Below, piece after piece: positions 27,359 to 40,212 of a stretch of DNA of 40,212 nt. The position numbers and the translations under genes were made by a program. The notes under the pieces were generated by a model. That model was not told where the DNA came from, did no database searches, and saw only the letters and a program-made list of their open reading frames with translations. Source of the DNA: Streptomyces sp. NRRL S-31 (lineage in GTDB: Bacteria > Actinomycetota > Actinomycetes > Streptomycetales > Streptomycetaceae); NCBI RefSeq assembly GCF_000718775.1, contig NZ_JOCB01000081.1, forward strand, positions 1-40,212. The letters run 5' to 3'. Within the stretch, counting starts at the first letter, position 1; each line of letters starts with the position of its first letter.

Positions 27359-28537
27359 TCAGTAGACCGGCTTCTCCGGTTCGATCTGGTTGACCCAGCC
27401 GATGACGCCGCCGCCGACGTGGACCGCGTCGGCGAAGCCCGCCGACTTCAGGACCGCGAGGACTTCCGCACTGCGGACACCCGTCTTGCAATGCAGGACG
27501 ATCTTCTTGTCCTGCGGCAGGGTCTCCAGGGCGGTGCCCATGAGGAACTCGTTCTTCGGGATCAGCTTGGCGCCCGGGATGGAGACGATCTCGTACTCGT
27601 TCGGCTCCCGGACGTCGATGATCTCGATGTTCTCGCCGTCGTCGATCCACTCCTTGAGCTGCTTCGGAGTGATCGTGGAGTCGGCCGCGGCCGCCTGGGC
27701 CTCCTCGGAGACGACGCCGCAGAATGCCTCGTAGTCGATGAGTTCCGTGACGGTCGGGTTCTCGCCGCAGACCGCGCAGTTCGGGTCCTTGCGGACCTTG
27801 ACCTGGCGGTACTGCATCTCCAGGGCGTCGTAGATCATCAGACGGCCGACCAGCGGGTCGCCGATGCCGGTGAGGAGCTTGATGGCCTCGTTGACCTGGA
27901 TGGAGCCGATGGACGCGCACAGCACGCCCAGCACGCCGCCCTCGGCGCAGGAGGGGACCATGCCGGGGGGCGGGGGCTCCGGGTAGAGGCAGCGGTAGCA
28001 GGGACCGTGCTCGGACCAGAACACGGACGCCTGGCCGTCGAAGCGGTAGATCGACCCCCACACGTACGGCTTGTTCAGCAGTACGCACGCGTCGTTGACC
28101 AGGTAGCGGGTGGCGAAGTTGTCGGTGCCGTCGATGATCAGGTCGTACTGGCTGAAGATGTCCATCACGTTGTCGGCTTCCAGCCGCTCCTCGTGAAGGA
28201 TCACGTCCACGTACGGGTTGATGCCCTTGACGGTGTCACGGGCCGACTCGGCCTTGGAGCGGCCGATGTCCGACTGGCTGTGGATGATCTGGCGCTGGAG
28301 GTTCGACTCGTCGACCTCGTCGAACTCCACGATGCCGAGAGTGCCCACGCCCGCGGCGGCCAGGTACATCAGCGCCGGCGAGCCCAGGCCGCCGGCGCCC
28401 ACACAGAGCACCTTGGCGTTCTTCAGCCGCTTCTGCCCGTCCATGCCCACGTCGGGGATGATCAGGTGGCGGGAGTACCTGCGGACCTCGTCTACGGTGA
28501 GCTCAGAGGCTGGCTCGACCAGGGGTGGCAGCGACAC
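27359..28537 (-). CDS. moeZ: MoeZ: adenylyltransferase/sulfurtransferase for sulfur-carrier proteins
   Basis: A 392-aa protein from GTG 28537 with ACGGAGTCCCC upstream. The E1-like half (to ~270) has the nucleotide loop VGAGGLGS (47-53), DGTDNFATR (ATP and Mg binding), and zinc CxxC pairs CYRC and CAVC. The C-terminal rhodanese domain carries the persulfide loop HCKTGVR near 349. It adenylates and thiocarboxylates ThiS/MoaD/CysO-type carriers for thiamine, molybdopterin, thiolated tRNA and cysteine synthesis; one such enzyme serves several natural-product pathways in actinomycetes. A sigma-R-type promoter lies upstream, implying induction by thiol stress. Confidence 0.96.
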   Translation of the reverse strand: MSLPPLVEPASELTVDEVRRYSRHLIIPDVGMDGQKRLKNAKVLCVGAGGLGSPALMYLAAAGVGTLGIVEFDEVDESNLQRQIIHSQSDIGRSKAESARDTVKGINPYVDVILHEERLEADNVMDIFSQYDLIIDGTDNFATRYLVNDACVLLNKPYVWGSIYRFDGQASVFWSEHGPCYRCLYPEPPPPGMVPSCAEGGVLGVLCASIGSIQVNEAIKLLTGIGDPLVGRLMIYDALEMQYRQVKVRKDPNCAVCGENPTVTELIDYEAFCGVVSEEAQAAAADSTITPKQLKEWIDDGENIEIIDVREPNEYEIVSIPGAKLIPKNEFLMGTALETLPQDKKIVLHCKTGVRSAEVLAVLKSAGFADAVHVGGGVIGWVNQIEPEKPVY

Positions 28538-33247: not shown

Positions 33248-34888
33248 TTACGCCACGGCGGGCTCCCGGCGGGCGGCACGCCGCCGGGCCGCCAGTTCCG
33301 GGTCGAGCGCCGGTACGGCGGCCAGGAGCTGCTTGGTGTACGGCTCGCGCGGGCTGTCGTACACCTCGTCGGCGGGCCCGTACTCGACGAGCCGGCCGCG
33401 CCGCATCACCGCGACCCGGTCGCTGACCTGGCGGACGACGGCGAGGTCGTGCGCGATGAAGACGAGCGCGAGGCCGAGTTCCCGCTGGAGCTCGCCGAGC
33501 AGGGCGACCACCTGCGCCTGGGTGGTGACGTCGAGCGCGGAGACGGGCTCGTCGCACACGATGGCGCGCGGCTCGGCGGCGAGCGCCCGCGCGATGCCGA
33601 TGCGCTGGCGCTGTCCGCCGCTGAACTCGTGCGGGTAGCGGTCGTAGTGCGCCGCTTCGAGCCCCACGCGCTCCAGCAGTTCCGTCACGCGCCCCCGGAT
33701 GCGTTCCTCGTCCCGGTCGCCCCGCGCGCGGAGCGGGTCGGCGATGGACTCGCCGACGCTGCGGCGGGGATTGAGGGAGGAGACGGGGTCCTGGAAGACC
33801 ATCTGCACGGCCGGGTTGACGCCGGTGTGCGGGCGCCCGTCGTAGCGGATCTCGCCGGCGGTCGGCTCCAGCAGCCCGACCAGCATGCGGCCGAGCGTGG
33901 TCTTGCCGCTGCCGCTCTCACCGACCACGCCGAGGGTCTCCCCGCGCCGTACGGTCACCGAGACGTCGTCCACGGCCGCGGACGCCCGCTTGCCGCGCCC
34001 GAACTCGCGCCGTACGCCGGTGGCTTCCAGCACCACTTCGCCGTCGGCCGGGGAGCCGGTCCGGCGGGCGTCCAGGCGCGGGACGGCGTCCAGCAGTTCC
34101 CTGGTGTACGCCTCGGCGGGCGCCGCCAGGACGGTGCCGACCGGGCCGCGCTCGACGGCCCTGCCGTGCCGCATGACGAGGATGTCGTCCACGCTCTCGG
34201 CGGCCACGCCCACGTCGTGGGTGACGAGCAGCAGGCCCATGCCGGTCTCCTCGCGCAGCGCGTGCAGCAGGTCGAGGATCTGGGCCTGGACGGTGACGTC
34301 GAGGGCGGTGGTCGGCTCGTCGGCGATCAGCAGGTCCGGCTCGCAGGCGAGGGCCATCGCGATGAGGGCGCGCTGGCGCATGCCCCCGCTGAACTCGTGC
34401 GGGCGGAACCGGGAACGCCGTGCCGCGTCCGGGATGCCGACCCGCTCCAGCACCTCCACCGCACGCGCGCGTGCGGCGCGGCGCGACACGCGCGTGTGGA
34501 CGCGGTGGACCTCGGCGATCTGGTCGCCGATCGCGTGGTACGGGTCGAGCGAGGACAGCGGGTCCTGGAAGACCATGGCGGCCTTGGCGCCGCGCAGCCG
34601 CCGCAGCTCCTCGTCGGAGGCCGCCTGTACGTCGGTGCCGGCCACCCGGACCGAGCCGCCGACCCGGGCCCCGGTGCCCCGGTGCAGGCCCAGCAGGGCG
34701 CCCGCGACCGTGGACTTGCCGGAGCCGGACTCGCCGACCAGGGCGAGGGCGGCGCCCTTCGCCAGGCTGAAGGAGAGTGTGTCGACGGCCCGCAGGCCGC
34801 CGAACTCGACGGTCAGGTCCGTCACGGCCACCAGGCTCGTGTCCGCCGCTTCCACCCGGCTCATGTCCGTCACTCCCACCCGGCTCAT
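33248..34888 (-). CDS. Fused double ATPase of an Opp/Dpp-type ABC importer (OppD-OppF fusion)
   Basis: A 546-aa protein from ATG 34888, overlapping the permease stop as ATGA. Two complete nucleotide-binding domains: the first has Walker [20 protein letters not shown], signature FSGGMRQR, Walker B LLIADEP and a switch THD; the second has [34 protein letters not shown] and AHD. The oligopeptide-transporter C-terminal motif ([24 protein letters not shown]) follows each. The two halves are normally separate proteins. It drives import for the upstream permeases and binding protein. The first codons repeat MSRV-like starts, so the exact N-terminus is uncertain by 8 residues. Confidence 0.94.
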
Positions 34889-35883
34889 GCGAGCACCACC
34901 CGTCGGTCGGCCACCGCGTACAGGACGTCCGCGACGGCGTTGGCGAGGACCACGAAGAAGCCGATGACCAGGACCATGCCGACGACCACCGGCAGGTCGA
35001 CGACCTTCACGGCGTGCACCATCTCCTGGCCGAGGCCGGGCAGCCCGAAGAGGGTCTCGGTCAGGACGGCACCGCCGACGGCCGAACCGAAGGTGACCGC
35101 GTTGAGCGCGATGACGGAGGCCGTCGCGCCGCGCAGCGCGTGCCGGGCGATCACGGCGCGCTCGGAGACGCCGTAGGCGCGGAACGTGCGGATGTGGTCC
35201 TCGGCGAGCGTCTCCAGCATCGACGCTCGGGTCAGCCGGGCGAACCCCGCGGCCTCGATGAGGGCGAGGGAGAGCCAGGGCAGCAGCAGGTTCCACGCCC
35301 ACTGTTCGGGGTCGTCGGTGAAGTTCACGTACTGCGGGAAGGGCAGCAGCTGGAGTTCGCCGCAGACGACGATCATCAGGATCAGTCCGATGACGAACAC
35401 GGGCGTGGCCGTGCCCGCGAGGGTGATCGCGGTCAGGACGCGTTCGGAGAACCGGCCGCGCCGCCAGGCGGACAGCACGCCGGTGCCGACGCCGAGCAGC
35501 AGCCAGATCACCATCCCGCCGATCACCAGGGAGAAGCTGACCGGCAGCTTGGTCAGGATGATGTCGGTGACCTGCCGGCCGGTCTGGTACGACTGGCCGA
35601 GGCAGGGCGCCGAGCAGTGCTCCACGGAGGTGCCCGTGGAGAAGTCCTGGCCCACGAAGAGCCCCTGGAGGAAGTGCCAGTAGCGCACGTACAGCGGGTC
35701 GTCCAGGTGGAGCTGCTGGGCGACCTGGTGCACCTGGGCCGGGGAGCAGCGGGGGCCGCAGGTGATCTGGGCGACGTCGCCCGGGGTGACGTAGAAGACG
35801 ACGTAGACGATCACCGAGAGCACGAGCAGGGTGATCACGGCGCCGACGACCCGGCGCAGGACGAAGCCGGTGAAGGCGTTCAC
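34885..35883 (-). CDS. ABC importer permease (DppB/OppB type)
   Basis: A 332-aa protein from GTG 35883 ([20 protein letters not shown]) with GGAGGAGCGGCC directly upstream; the start overlaps the previous stop as GTGA. Six membrane helices are visible and the EAA loop reads [16 protein letters not shown] loop between helices 1 and 2 has four cysteines ([18 protein letters not shown]), unusual for this family and facing outside, so disulfides are likely. It is the inner-membrane channel with the partner permease. Confidence 0.93.
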
Positions 35884-37016
35884 GGCCGCTCCTCCTCCTT
35901 CTTCGGCTTCTGCGGCTTCTCCGGTCCGCCGTCCGCCACGGAGGACACGGAGGCGGTCCCGGGCGTCGCGGAGGTCCCGGGGGTCGCGGTGGTCCCGGGG
36001 GTCCCGGACGTCGTCGCCGTTCCGGCGCGCGCCTCGCGCTTGCGGCCGGTGCCGACGCGCAGGCGGGAGGCGGCGCGCGGGTCCAGGGCGACACGGACGC
36101 CGTCGCCGAGGACGGTCATCGCGAACACGGTCACGAACAGGGCGAGCGCGGGCAGCAGCAGATACTGCGGGGCCGCCTGGTACCAGACGTCGGCGGAGGT
36201 GAGCATCTGGCCCCAGGACGGGGTGGGCGGCTTCACGCCGACGCCGAGGAAGGACAGGGCCGCCTCGGCGCTGATGTTCGACGGCACCAGCAGCGCCGCG
36301 TAGGTGATGACCGGCGCGGCGAGGCCCGGGAGCAGTTCGCGCACGGCGGTCCGCCAGGTGCTCCAGCCGCTCAGCCGGGACGCGGAGACGTAGTCGAGGT
36401 TCTTCAGCGCGAGGGTCTGGGCGCGCACCATCTTCGCCATGGTGCTCCACCCGGAGACCAGGGCGATGATCAGCGCGACCAGGACTGGCCGCGGGAAATC
36501 GCCGGGCACCACGGCCAGCAGCGCGAGCGCCATGACCATCAGCGGTATCGCGAGGAAGAGGTCGGTGATACGGCTCAGCACCAGGTCGACCCAGCGGTTG
36601 CCGAGGCCGGCGGCCACGCCCATGGCGACGCCGACGAGGATCTGCACCAGCGTGGCGGCCAGCGAGACGCCCAGCGACACCCGGGCGCCGTAGACCAGCC
36701 GGGCGAACAGGTCGCGTCCGGTCTGCGGCTCCACGCCCAGCCAGTGGTCGGCGCTCGCGCCGCCGAAGGAGCCGATGGGCACGCCGCCGCGCGCGGAGTC
36801 GATCAGCGCGGGGTGGTACGTGGTGGGGTCCTGGCCCTCCAGCGCGGTGAGCAGCGGCGCGGCGAGCGCGACCAGGACGAGCAGCGCGACGACGGCCGCG
36901 GCGACGAGGGCGGCGCGCTGCGCCCGCAGCCGCCGCCAGAACTGACGTGCCCCCGAGACCGCCGGGACGGTGGTGTCCGTCCCGGCGGTCTCGACGACGA
37001 CAAGTGCCTCGCTCAC
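35880..37016 (-). CDS. ABC importer permease (DppC/OppC type) with repetitive C-terminal tail
   Basis: A 378-aa protein from GTG 37016 (VSEALVVVETAGTDTTVP). The OppC N-terminal domain and six membrane helices are present (AALVAAAVVALLVLVALAAP, LVQILVGVAMGVAAGLG, PVITYAALLVPSNISAEAAL); the EAA-loop motif is VRELLPGLAAPVI. The last ~55 residues form a hydrophilic tail with TPGTTATPGTSATPGT repeats ending in Lys/Glu-rich sequence, absent in most family members. It starts 4 bases after the binding-protein gene and overlaps the next permease. Confidence 0.93.
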   Translation of the reverse strand: MSEALVVVETAGTDTTVPAVSGARQFWRRLRAQRAALVAAAVVALLVLVALAAPLLTALEGQDPTTYHPALIDSARGGVPIGSFGGASADHWLGVEPQTGRDLFARLVYGARVSLGVSLAATLVQILVGVAMGVAAGLGNRWVDLVLSRITDLFLAIPLMVMALALLAVVPGDFPRPVLVALIIALVSGWSTMAKMVRAQTLALKNLDYVSASRLSGWSTWRTAVRELLPGLAAPVITYAALLVPSNISAEAALSFLGVGVKPPTPSWGQMLTSADVWYQAAPQYLLLPALALFVTVFAMTVLGDGVRVALDPRAASRLRVGTGRKREARAGTATTSGTPGTTATPGTSATPGTASVSSVADGGPEKPQKPKKEEERP

Positions 37017-37020
37017 GGTG

Positions 37021-38739
37021 TTACTTCACCGCGACCTGGGAGACGTCCAGGACGCCGGTCCAGTCGCTGATGACGACGTTCTTGACGTCCTTGCCGACCA
37101 GGCGCTTGTAGACCGGGTGGAACAGCGGCACGACGAGGGCCTTCTCGCCGATCTTCCGGTCCAGCGCGCCCCACCGCTTGGCGGCGGCGTCAAGATCGGT
37201 CAACTTGTTGATCGCGTCAATCTCGTCATTGACCGACTTGTCGTCCAGCAGGCCCGTGTTGAAGTTCGCTCCATCCTTGACGATCTGCCGGCCGTCGAAG
37301 ATCGGGGCGAGGAAGGGACCGCCGGAGGGCCAGTCGGCACCCCAGTGGGCGAGGAAGAAGCCCGGCTCGGTCCTGACGCTGCGGATCTTGTCCTTGTAGT
37401 CGTTGTCCTCCAGGCCCTGGAGCTTGACCGTGATGCCGGCCTTCTTGAGGGCGTCCTGGACGGCGGTGGCGATCTCCGGGCTGGTCTCGAAGTCCTTGCT
37501 GTTGGAGTGGGTCAGCGTGACGGTGAGCCCGTTCTTGTGGCCGGCCTGGGCGAGCAGCTCCTTGGCCTTGGCCGCGTTGCCGGAGGCGCCCGCCGGGAAG
37601 GGGTCGTACGGCGTGTAGCCGAAGGACTTCTGGTTGGGCAGGAAGGTGGTGGCGGGCTCGGCGAGGGCGCTGCCGCCGGCCGCGTTGACGACCGAGGACC
37701 GGTCGATGGCGTAGGCGATCGCCTGGCGCACCTTGGGGTCGTCGAACGGCTTCACGCTCGGGTTGAACGCGATGTAGTTCGTGTAGCCGAAGTGGCCGGT
37801 GCCCACGCGCGCGGCCAGCTCCTTGTCACCGGTGACCTTGGCGAGTTCGGCGGGGCCGAGGTTGGTGTCCGTGGTGACGGCGGCGGCGTCCGCGCCCTGG
37901 GAGGCGGACAGCCGCTGGTTGATCACCGAGGAGTCGAGACCGGAGCGCACGTCGATGGTGTCCGGGTACGCCTTGCGCTCGGCGTCGGTCGCGGCCGACC
38001 AGTTGGTGTTGCGCTCCAGGACGAGGTGCTCGCCGTCGTTCTCGTTCTTCACGACCTTGTAGGGGCCGGACGAGACCGGGTGCGACTCGTACTTGGTGCC
38101 CGTGTCCTTGCTCTTGGGAACCGGGGTGAACTGCGTCTGCGTGGCGAGGTACGGGAACTCGCCCTCGGGCTTGTTCAGATGGAAGACGATGGTCCGGGCG
38201 TCCGGCGTCTCGATCGCGGACAGGCCCTTCTTGTCCTTGTACGGCCCCTGGTAGTCGGCCGCGCCGACCAGCCAGTCGCGCAGGTAGGGGGCGCCGCCGG
38301 AGAGTTCGGGGGCGAAGGAGCGCTCGATGCCGTACTTGATGTCGGCCGAGGTGATCGGGGTGCCGTCCTCGTACTTGAGGCCCTTCTTCAGGGTGTACGT
38401 CCACACGGTCGCGTCCTTGTTGGGGCGCCCGGTGTCGGTGGCGAGGTCGGGGACGACCTTGGCGCCGGCCGCGCCGTTCTCGCGGTTGCGCGTGGTGAGG
38501 GTGCGGAAGACCAGCGAGGGAACGTTTCCGCCGCCGGAGGTGTACAGGCGCGCGGGGTCGAAGTCGCTCTGCGGCTGCGAGTTCAGGATCGAGAGCGTGC
38601 CGCCCTTGTGGGGCGCGGAGTCGCCGCCGGAGGCCTTGGCATCGCTGTCCTTCGGGCCGCACGCGGCAGCACCCGCTGCCACCAGCAGGCTGACGGATGC
38701 CGCTGCCACGCGGCGCGCTGTGACGGACGGTTGACGCAT
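37021..38739 (-). CDS. Peptide/nickel-type (SBP family 5) lipoprotein binding protein
   Basis: A 572-aa protein from ATG 38739 with GAGAGGTCGTC upstream. A lipoprotein signal with lipobox GAAAC (Cys27) anchors it outside. Family 5 landmarks: GGTLSILNSQPQSDFDPARL, VWTYTLKKGLKYEDGTPITS, LERNTNWSAATD, VRQAIAYAIDRSSV, and the C-terminal WGADWPSGGPFL. It is the substrate receptor of the following importer genes. Oligopeptide or dipeptide is the default substrate; the binding pocket cannot be assigned from sequence. A peptide ORF and terminator upstream imply attenuation control. Confidence 0.95.
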   Translation of the reverse strand: MRQPSVTARRVAAASVSLLVAAGAAACGPKDSDAKASGGDSAPHKGGTLSILNSQPQSDFDPARLYTSGGGNVPSLVFRTLTTRNRENGAAGAKVVPDLATDTGRPNKDATVWTYTLKKGLKYEDGTPITSADIKYGIERSFAPELSGGAPYLRDWLVGAADYQGPYKDKKGLSAIETPDARTIVFHLNKPEGEFPYLATQTQFTPVPKSKDTGTKYESHPVSSGPYKVVKNENDGEHLVLERNTNWSAATDAERKAYPDTIDVRSGLDSSVINQRLSASQGADAAAVTTDTNLGPAELAKVTGDKELAARVGTGHFGYTNYIAFNPSVKPFDDPKVRQAIAYAIDRSSVVNAAGGSALAEPATTFLPNQKSFGYTPYDPFPAGASGNAAKAKELLAQAGHKNGLTVTLTHSNSKDFETSPEIATAVQDALKKAGITVKLQGLEDNDYKDKIRSVRTEPGFFLAHWGADWPSGGPFLAPIFDGRQIVKDGANFNTGLLDDKSVNDEIDAINKLTDLDAAAKRWGALDRKIGEKALVVPLFHPVYKRLVGKDVKNVVISDWTGVLDVSQVAVK

Positions 38740-38756
38740 CGGAATGACGACCTCTC

Positions 38757-38790
38757 GGGGGGGGGTGATTCGGGGTTGATTCGGGGGGTG
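38757..38790 (-). repeat. G-run and GATTCGGGG repeats in the binding-protein leader
   Basis: A run of nine G (38757-38765) is followed by GATT-CGGGG units (three imperfect copies to ~38790), between the attenuator and the start codon. Length variation would alter the leader. Confidence 0.7.
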
Positions 38791-38874
38791 ATCGAGGGTT
38801 TCTCGACTGGTGAGACATGTGGACGAGGAATGAGACGACTGCGGACAGACGTCGGCCCCGGCGTCGGGTCGTCG

Positions 38875-38898
38875 AAAAATCCGTGACCGGGTCACGGA
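38875..38898 (-). terminator. Intrinsic terminator (attenuator candidate) ahead of the ABC importer operon
   Basis: On the minus strand an 8-bp perfect stem (TCCGTGAC, loop CGG, GTCACGGA; 38880-38898) is followed by TTTTT (38879-38875), a rare U-tract in such GC-rich DNA. It sits 46 bases past the small peptide ORF and 136 before the binding-protein start. Since the importer has no visible promoter of its own after it, it probably acts as a conditional terminator. Confidence 0.8.
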
Positions 38899-38943
38899 CG
38901 AAAAGGAGAAAAAGGTCGCGACGCGAACGCCCGGGAGGCGGCG

Positions 38944-39039
38944 TCAGCGACAGTGGATGTCGGCCACGCAGAGCGCGGTCACGCCAATGAGCGCCAGCTC
39001 GATGGCGGCGCTGTTGGAGACGGCGTGACGGGACCACAT
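38944..39039 (-). CDS. Leaderless 31-aa peptide ORF, probable leader peptide of the ABC importer
   Basis: ATG 39039 to TGA 38946-38944. The peptide begins MWSRHAVSNSAAIELALIG and ends ALCVADIHCR. It has 28 of 31 codons with G or C third and lacks any upstream ribosome site; the predicted transcription start falls on or next to the ATG, so it is probably a leaderless mRNA. There is one short hydrophobic stretch but no signal peptide. The C-terminal Cys and Arg recall actinobacterial cysteine-sensing leader peptides, but only two Cys occur. With the terminator behind it the layout is that of a translational-sensing attenuator. A free role for the peptide is not excluded. Confidence 0.65.
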   Translation of the reverse strand: MWSRHAVSNSAAIELALIGVTALCVADIHCR

Positions 39040-39046
39040 GCGCAGA

Positions 39047-39084
39047 AATATGGACGACCATGCGGGCTCATGTCAATGTGACAT
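39047..39084 (-). promoter_or_regulatory. Consensus promoter with palindromic operator ahead of the peptide ORF
   Basis: Minus strand: TTGACA (39076-39071), 18 bases, CATATT (39052-39047), giving a start at about 39040. The perfect palindrome ATGTCA-N3-TGACAT (39070-39084) overlaps the -35, so a dimeric regulator bound there would block or alter transcription. The regulator is unknown. Confidence 0.8.
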
Positions 39085-39096
39085 AAGCGGTCCCCG

Positions 39097-40212
39097 TCAA
39101 CTCCCGGGATAGGGCCACGGATTGGGCCGACAGTGGATTCCGTCATGGTCGAGGAACTTGGTCTGCTGCTGCATGACGGGCGCCAGCTCGCCGTCCTTCT
39201 GGCAGCTGACGTGCCCGTTGCCGAGCCGGTGCCCGACCTCATGGTTGATCAACATCTGCCGGTACGCATGGATCCGGTCACCGTACGTCTTGCTGCCTTG
39301 AGCCCATCGGTACGCATTGATCATGACGCGTTCGGTCGCGGCGGAGTCGCAGGAGACGTTGTCCTCCGTGGTGTCCAGGCCGGACTTGGCGCACCACTTG
39401 GCGGTGGTGCCGGGGCTGGCCAGGGTGATCACGAAGTCGGGCTTGCCGGAGGAGACGCGCTCGAAGGTCCGGGCGCCGCCGTGCGCCCAGCTGCGTTCGT
39501 CGTTCAGGGTCATCTGCACGGCCTCGGCGAACAGCGCGCCGTCCAGACCCAGCCCCTGCTCGATGTCGACGCGGTACCGGTACTTCTGCCCGGTGCCGGG
39601 CGCCTTGTCGAAACCGGGCACGGCGTCGAACTTCCCCGGCCCGGTCAGCCCGGCCGCGAGCGGATACTTCGTACCCATCTTCTGGTCGTACGTCAGGGGC
39701 ACCGTGCTCGGCGTGCCGGAGGGCGTCGGCCCGCCGGATGCCACGGAGCCACCGGCCTGGTCGGCCGCGGACCGCGACGACGCGCCGGCGTCGTCCCGGC
39801 CGTCGGACACCTGTCCGGCCACGACCACCGCAAGCACGGTGGTGACGGCGGCCGCCGCGATGCCGGTGAAGGCCCAGCCCTTGGTGCCGCCGCGCTGCCC
39901 GGGCAGACCGGCGCCGTCCGCCGCGGTGGCGGCCGGTCGCGGTGCCTCGGGCGGCTGCCCGCCCGCGCGGCGGGCCGCGGCCGTCCCGGCCGCGGAGCCA
40001 CCGCCCTCCCGGGCGTCATGAGCGGCGCGGGCGTCCCGCGAGGCGCCTCCGGCGCCGTCGAAGGCGTCCAGGTACTCCTGCCGGGGGCCGGAACCGGAGC
40101 CGCGTCCTCGCCCGCCCGAGCCCGCCCGGCGCTGCCGGGGCAGCACCACACCGGGCCCGCCGGCGTCGGCCGTCCGCCGGCCGAACTCGCCCCAGCCGCC
40201 GCCGGGTTCCCG
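39097..40212 (-). CDS. DUF3152 zincin-like membrane-anchored protein, 5' end off window
   Basis: The frame is open to the right edge (upstream codons read GGGWGEFGRRTADAGG), so the start is missing; 371 codons are seen. The first ~130 residues are Gly/Ala/Arg-rich and cytoplasmic; one membrane helix follows (WAFTGIAAAAVTTVLAVVVA), then a Ser/Pro linker and the DUF3152 domain outside the membrane. INHEVGHRLGNGHVSC contains the HExxH...H zinc signature; cysteines (KWCAKS, VSCDSA, VSCQKD, IHCRPN) suggest two disulfides. A protease role is inferred from the zinc motif; no substrate is known. An unrelated gene begins 57 bases past its stop. Confidence 0.9.
   Translation of the reverse strand, partial: REPGGGWGEFGRRTADAGGPGVVLPRQRRAGSGGRGRGSGSGPRQEYLDAFDGAGGASRDARAAHDAREGGGSAAGTAAARRAGGQPPEAPRPAATAADGAGLPGQRGGTKGWAFTGIAAAAVTTVLAVVVAGQVSDGRDDAGASSRSAADQAGGSVASGGPTPSGTPSTVPLTYDQKMGTKYPLAAGLTGPGKFDAVPGFDKAPGTGQKYRYRVDIEQGLGLDGALFAEAVQMTLNDERSWAHGGARTFERVSSGKPDFVITLASPGTTAKWCAKSGLDTTEDNVSCDSAATERVMINAYRWAQGSKTYGDRIHAYRQMLINHEVGHRLGNGHVSCQKDGELAPVMQQQTKFLDHDGIHCRPNPWPYPGS

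Follow-up and report, generated by a model that had tools for sequence, protein, structure and literature searches.

Cysteine-responsive leaderless short ORFs of mycobacteria have reportedly been described, by Canestrari et al. in 2020 (Mol Microbiol 114:93-108). Depletion of methionine and cysteine is a mark of proteins made during sulfur starvation, and the sulfate-binding protein of enteric bacteria is a sulfur-free protein made under sulfate starvation. Mycobacterial relatives of the leader treated here are presented as cysteine-responsive attenuators in the relevant parts of PMC9094748 and PMC13236596. In Streptomyces lividans TK24, the attenuators named in PMC8079986 include leuL, trpL, ilvL and metL, among others, with metL located before the metNIQ importer.

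In the window analyzed here (the whole stretch of 40,212 nucleotides from Streptomyces sp. NRRL S-31), a 31-codon ORF preceding a peptide importer operon is, by its profile match, a conserved leader peptide and a member of family NF042937. The locus is likely to be an attenuator with an Ms4533A-family leader peptide, through which cysteine would control the expression of a peptide importer that scavenges sulfur, and the tiny leader gene would probably sense cysteine shortage.

A literature search yielded no paper on Ms4533A, on the Cys-rich leader peptide or on SCO5477, which we take to be a possible S. coelicolor counterpart of the leader, and none on this locus was recognized by title or beginning of abstract among the matches listed. 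An earlier sequence-only reading of this DNA had regarded such a switch as not described. This had to be corrected, as this kind of leader is already known and curated by NCBI, and mycobacterial relatives are published as cysteine-responsive attenuators (relevant parts of PMC9094748 and PMC13236596); its setting before a peptide importer seems new.

Two sets of Streptomyces loci, which share species, were used for comparison. In 150 Streptomyces genomes searched with NF042937, 71 matches were over the cut-off and 77 were obtained at E 0.01. The working set consisted of 72 loci, namely the 71 over the cut-off and G087 (25.6 bits); the sub-cut-off matches of G008, G043, G100, G121 and G137 were left out, as was a second, weak match in each of G042 and G053. 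For the other set, called the named loci here, the best 80 of 273 relatives were taken.

The leader, the hairpins and the importer operon were all located on the minus strand in the ORF and motif scan of the window, in the order DUF3152 gene, 20 nt, TTGACA-N18-CATATT, 7 nt, leader ATG, P1, P2 and importer genes. By sequence scan, the promoter, the palindrome, the 31-codon ORF, the hairpin with five Ts and the importer operon were all found where the sequence-only reading had placed them. The features are as follows.

39097-40149, minus strand: DUF3152 protein gene, directly upstream of the leader promoter (domain match).
39070..39084, no strand assigned: ATGTCA-N3-TGACAT, a perfect palindrome lying over the -35 box (33 of 80 named loci have it in perfect form).
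39047..39076, minus strand: promoter TTGACA-N18-CATATT, 7 nt before the ATG (promoter scan and upstream sequences of 72 loci).
38944..39039, minus strand: leader peptide ORF of 31 codons, Ms4533A family NF042937 (profile match of 53.6 bits, cut-off 31).
38948..38962, minus strand: possible hairpin P0, 5 bp, CGACA/TGTCG, in the last codons (consensus fold).
38950..38952, minus strand: TGT (Cys), invariant second-last leader codon (72 of 72 loci and 80 of 80 named loci).
38920..38945, minus strand: hairpin P1, GACGC...GCGTC, with the 5' arm beginning within the stop codon (folding and arm matching).
about 38875-38898, minus strand: terminator-like hairpin P2, TCCGTGAC-CCG-GTCACGGA followed by T5 (folding, -12.8 kcal/mol).
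38811..38836, minus strand: two GTCTCA direct repeats, 20 nt apart (sequence scan).
38751..38756, minus strand: Shine-Dalgarno-like GAGAGG of the binding-protein gene (placed by eye).
37021..38739, minus strand: peptide-binding lipoprotein, SBP_bac_5, PF00496 (domain match; 1 Met, 1 Cys).
35880..37016, minus strand: OppC-like permease (domain match).
34885..35883, minus strand: OppB-like permease (domain match; start set by eye from the frame).
33248..34888, minus strand: protein with two ABC ATPase domains (domain match; start set by eye from the frame).

According to their reading frames, the importer ORFs abut or overlap. The DUF3152 gene was matched beside leader and importer in 68 of the 72 Streptomyces loci and in none of seven short order-level stretches, the one of L113 reaching no more than 146 nt upstream of its leader. 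At 27359-28537, downstream of the importer by about 5 kb and on the same minus strand, lies a gene for the sulfur-transfer enzyme MoeZ, an adenylyltransferase/sulfurtransferase (NCBIfam PRK07878).

The linkage of leader and importer was consistent across genomes. A binding-protein search of the same 150 genomes gave 91 matches at E 1e-100, of which 71 were clear orthologues (at least 72% identity) and the rest shared 37-45%. The leader was matched in all 71 genomes with a clear orthologue, in 70 over the cut-off and in G087 below it, so that none of them carried the importer without the small ORF. The claim of the sequence-only reading that the ORF is tied to the importer was thereby borne out, and since the link is conserved in 71 genomes, it lies far beyond chance. 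In G079, a genome with the leader, only a partial binding-protein match was found in the fetched stretch.

All 80 named loci likewise carried the leader, 79 as found by pattern and L168 with a leader located further upstream and ending in a TAG stop. In another family of the order, all 7 loci fetched had the leader before the binding protein, whose matched part showed 59-64% identity, and the eighth fetched order-level locus, L117, was a Streptomyces locus with a binding protein of 76% identity.

The ORF translates as MWSRHAVSNSAAIELALIGVTALCVADIHCR, with the C-terminal end ...CVADIHCR. The profile NCBIfam NF042937, "Ms4533A family Cys-rich leader peptide", aligned over its full length with the peptide, from residue 2 through the last one (53.6 bits; cut-off 31). 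The peptide contains two Cys residues, only one of them invariant, and is not polycysteine: one Cys precedes the last Arg, and two adjacent Cys were observed in 11 of 72 loci. Because the run of Cys codons is absent, the leader was not assigned to the polycysteine attenuators; judged by analogy, it probably works like them despite the missing run. In L035 (G031), the usual leader stop is lost and the peptide continues to ...VADIHCRQGQRHLTSA.

A marked codon preference was observed at the second-last position, where TGT, a rare codon, stood without exception in all 72 loci of the working set, all 80 named loci, all 7 order-level loci and L117. Among the named loci, the binding proteins use TGC for 80 of 80 Cys codons; TGC also accounts for 45 of 50 codons at the other Cys of these leader peptides and for 11 of 11 where the last leader codon encodes Cys (Fisher 4e-28 for the TGT bias, with relatedness ignored).

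The last codon itself varied (Arg 56, Cys 11, Ser 4, Leu 1 in the 72 loci). Cysteine and arginine had both been proposed as the signal in the sequence-only reading; since the second-last Cys codon never changes in the 72 loci and the last one does, cysteine is the likelier of the two. The kept UGU might be due to slow wobble reading. The small P0 hairpin in the last codons is another candidate cause, predicted by folding; no pair of P0 passed the filter for double changes.

In a class-wide sample, NF042937 was matched in 29 of 296 genomes at E 0.001, with 25 over the cut-off. The matches comprised 13 Streptomyces, 15 members of family f6 and one of family f20; f6 is taken here, from the name of the leader family alone, to be mycobacteria-like. 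In all 15 f6 loci, the gene following the leader encodes a sulfate ABC transporter substrate-binding protein; the TIGR00971 score exceeds its cut-off in 13 of them and falls short of it in L098 and L110. TGT was the second-last codon in 13 of the 15 f6 leaders and lay further in for L106 and L087; in the 14 f6 loci counted, the leader Cys codons were 29 TGT and 10 TGC. In the f20 locus (L107, 1480-1584), the leader reached 29.9 bits, below the cut-off, and has a longer end, ...VADISCRRVAR; the next gene there encodes a sulfatase (PF00884).

The binding protein of the window, 572 residues long, contains one Met (the start) and one Cys (that of the lipobox). Among the 80 named orthologues (the best 80 of 273; mature length 544-549 residues), 78 have no Met and two have one, and the lipid Cys is the single Cys in all 80. 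Comparable results were obtained for 30 partial Streptomyces orthologues of 391-424 residues, with no Met in 29 and one Cys in 29.

The 11 other family-5 matches of the same genome, which holds 12 such binding proteins at E 1e-20 or better, served as the control. They contain 54 Met+Cys per 3891 domain residues, 1.4% on average, in a control limited to one genome, counted in the matched frame and including a 174-residue piece. At this rate, the chance of zero Met+Cys is 0.004 for 391 residues and 0.0005 for 545. The remaining importer proteins were not depleted (1.9-3.1% Met+Cys), and five order-level relatives of the binding protein were less strict, with 0-1 Met and 2-3 Cys in 231-292 residues.

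The sulfate-binding proteins of f6 gave, as raw counts (n = 15), no Met in 12, one in two and two in one, with one Cys each. The same leader therefore precedes two nearly sulfur-free binding-protein families in two lineages, Streptomyces and f6. The sulfur-free binding protein appears to be a new and independent clue to the role of the importer: because a cysteine leader precedes an almost sulfur-free binding protein, the sequence evidence suggests that the importer collects sulfur as peptides. Among solved structures, the binding protein matched 2wok best, with 283.8 bits; this structure, clavulanic acid oligopeptide-binding protein 2, did not indicate the substrate.

According to the proposed mechanism, RNA polymerase would start at or next to the leader ATG, with a ribosome behind it that decodes the leader end UGU(Cys)-nGC-UGA. 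When Cys-tRNA is sufficient, the ribosome would finish and leave, allowing P1 to form at the stop codon, while the RNA beyond it would be shut off by the terminator-like hairpin P2 and/or Rho and/or a closed binding-protein start site. When Cys-tRNA is scarce, the ribosome would wait at UGU, covering the 5' arm of P1, and the importer would be made, bringing in peptides as a cysteine or sulfur source. Being almost sulfur-free, the binding protein could be made in quantity during sulfur shortage.

The region 38740-39039 folded better than shuffled sequence (z -3.3), and at gathering thresholds Rfam had no match in the window. When 71 P1 regions were aligned, their consensus structure contained no pairs, and P1 was examined instead by matching arm by arm. 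In 40 of 50 distinct sequences, GACGC was accompanied by GCGTC, and in 4 of 5 GACAC was accompanied by GTGTC, with no cross-over.

An exact partner was found for 7 of 22 non-consensus P1 arms in the 72 loci (permuted mean 0.93, maximum 5 in 2000), for 7 of 36 when the named loci were added (permuted maximum 6) and for 11 of 50 when 14 f6 loci were also included (permuted maximum 10); these permutation figures are not probabilities, because arms are shared among related species through common ancestry. The 80 named loci taken by themselves gave 0 of 14. The same GACAC/GTGTC pair was present at P1 in the f6 loci L088, L089 and L093. From the covariation of the arms and this shared pair, P1 is probably real and old.

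With regard to the output step, three results failed to establish that the importer depends on an intrinsic terminator. A strict terminator scan yielded no site in the window and did not list P2, whose first T pairs with a G of the stem, which is the probable reason. The energy of P2 in the window (-12.8 kcal/mol) was equaled by one of ten shuffles. When stalling was imposed, the probability of P2 in the window changed only from 0.98 to 0.93, and the mean of 41 loci from 0.65 to 0.64 (equilibrium folding only).

In close relatives, P2 is CCGTGAC/GTCACGG with a varying T-run, and the T-run is not kept beyond them. A loose count of terminator-like hairpins was hardly above that in shuffled sequence (49 of 71 loci versus 43); in 17 of the 49 loci listed, none of 10 shuffles reached the observed hairpin energy.

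In another Streptomyces clade (L056, L064, L069, L075 and others), a long conserved hairpin, GCCGCGCCCGG...CCGTCCGCAGGCGCGGC, occupies the place of P2. Its sequence is unrelated, its energy about -20 to -31 kcal/mol and its tail T-rich; as it is alike even in the bulge, it may be more than a terminator.

Two candidate switches were not supported. Antitermination by freeing of the P1 3' arm was evaluated in 70 loci (L035 and L076 left out), 41 of which have a P2 candidate; the probability dropped by more than 0.2 in 4 and rose by as much in 6. Closure of the binding-protein start site as a conserved switch found no support in equilibrium folding, with mean unpaired values of 0.20 free and 0.19 stalled (71 of 72 loci, without L076). 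Start-site closure hardly exceeded that of shuffled sequence (0.194 against 0.225), with a value below the shuffle mean in 43 of 71 loci.

Rho-dependent termination in the C-rich leader, acting instead of P2 or start-site closure, is a possible output, though an unlikely one. C exceeded G in the untranslated stretch of 71 of 71 loci (mean 0.41 and 0.26, as raw composition), and the lack of a kept P2 T-run beyond close relatives is consistent with Rho, whereas strong hairpins with T-rich tails, differing in sequence, are found in two clades.

A role of the peptide itself was also considered, in which the nascent chain would arrest the ribosome and sense cysteine or another small molecule, with the conserved residues acting in the exit tunnel and Cys-tRNA charging being less important. 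Such arrest would agree with the pattern of conservation, since G, V, V, D and the second-last C never vary among the 72 loci (L is kept in 71, another L in 69 and E in 67 of 72), and a single invariant Cys codon would be a weak starvation sensor. Streptomyces and f6 leaders mostly agree in the residues V, A, D and C but use different codons for them, TGT excepted (for example GTT GCT GAT against GTG GCC GAC), and for this reason an additional role of the peptide is favored.

However, codons other than TGT are also biased in the Streptomyces leaders (GTG 69/72, GCG 66/67, CTG 66/69), so that the constraint lies partly at the RNA or codon level. The pN/pS over the leader core is only 0.44 (33 distinct sequences, taken from every second locus), and mycobacterial members of the family are read as codon-based attenuators in the relevant parts of PMC9094748 and PMC13236596. 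Arrest by the nascent peptide is thus doubtful as the main principle, and attenuation through cysteine-dependent stalling is preferred.

A broader generalization, equally doubtful, would be that a regulatory nascent peptide is common to the class, carries a conserved LALxxV...VADxxC body with an invariant UGU close to the end, and acts inside the ribosome as a cysteine sensor that switches the sulfur importer following it. This importer would serve for sulfate in f6 and for peptides in Streptomyces, whose peptide-binding protein would have become nearly sulfur-free in the course of evolution. If this were true, peptides would be a regulated sulfur source in Streptomyces.

With regard to initiation, TTGACA-N18-CATATT was the sole promoter-like site within 38650-39150 (one found; mean of 0.1 in shuffles), and 72 of 79 named loci had CATATT at the corresponding position. 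Because the promoter ends 7 nt before the ATG, a leaderless start of the leader ORF is probable.

A perfect palindrome over the -35 box was observed in 33 of the 80 named loci (L168 and 32 of the other 79), and in the 79 named loci, with sequences anchored on the -35 box, the inner GTCA/TGAC was better kept. The left arm was present in only part of the genus, and species of other clades, without the palindrome, retain leader and importer; the palindrome is real yet clade-limited. A second copy was absent from the 8.74 Mb genome with one mismatch allowed, and the palindrome as part of a regulon thus found no support.

At least two GTCTC motifs were observed between leader and binding-protein gene in 30 of 72 loci, with a pair exactly 20 nt apart in 28. 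A GAGAC/GTCTC inverted repeat lies upstream of the leader start, near the promoter, in 17 of 72 loci by a loose pattern.

The sequence-only reading had also considered a DNA-bound regulator. As the main switch, bound at the palindrome over the -35 box and leaving the ORF a secondary part, such a regulator is improbable. Its case consists of the perfect 6-3-6 palindrome with the well-kept inner GTCA/TGAC and, possibly, the inverted repeat upstream of the leader; against it stand the incomplete conservation of the palindrome, the absence of a second genomic site and the species that lack the palindrome and still retain leader and importer, and conservation of the right arm is confounded with that of the -35 box. 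A regulator at the palindrome or the repeats is possible, and attenuation at the leader does not need one.

That the ORF encodes a small structural or signaling protein, co-transcribed with the importer by chance, would account for the amino-acid conservation but is highly improbable, as the leaderless-type promoter, the invariant TGT, the covarying stop-codon hairpin and the sulfate-type targets fit a leader.

To our knowledge, the cargo of family-5 importers is mostly not known. The leader and the nearly sulfur-free binding protein together give one of the many importers of this family a likely role, the uptake of peptide sulfur. Since the polycysteine explanation does not apply, the locus also offers a clear-cut case for testing how a leader can work with a single invariant Cys, and why UGU is kept over the preferred UGC.

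Compared with the known systems, the locus resembles the mycobacterial Ms4533A leaders in its NF042937 match over the cut-off, the LALxxV...VADxxC core, TGT near the end, the leaderless-type promoter and the position before the binding protein of an importer. It differs from them in having one invariant Cys codon, where theirs form a run, and from the f6 leaders in that a peptide importer lies downstream instead of a sulfate-binding protein. With the S. lividans TK24 attenuators, it shares the short ORF, often leaderless there, and hairpins before amino-acid genes, whereas the table of eight attenuators in PMC8079986 includes neither a cysteine leader nor a peptide importer. As in the case of the enteric sulfate-binding protein, a secreted binding protein is depleted of Met and Cys; in contrast to it, the depleted protein here is a family-5 peptide-binding protein.
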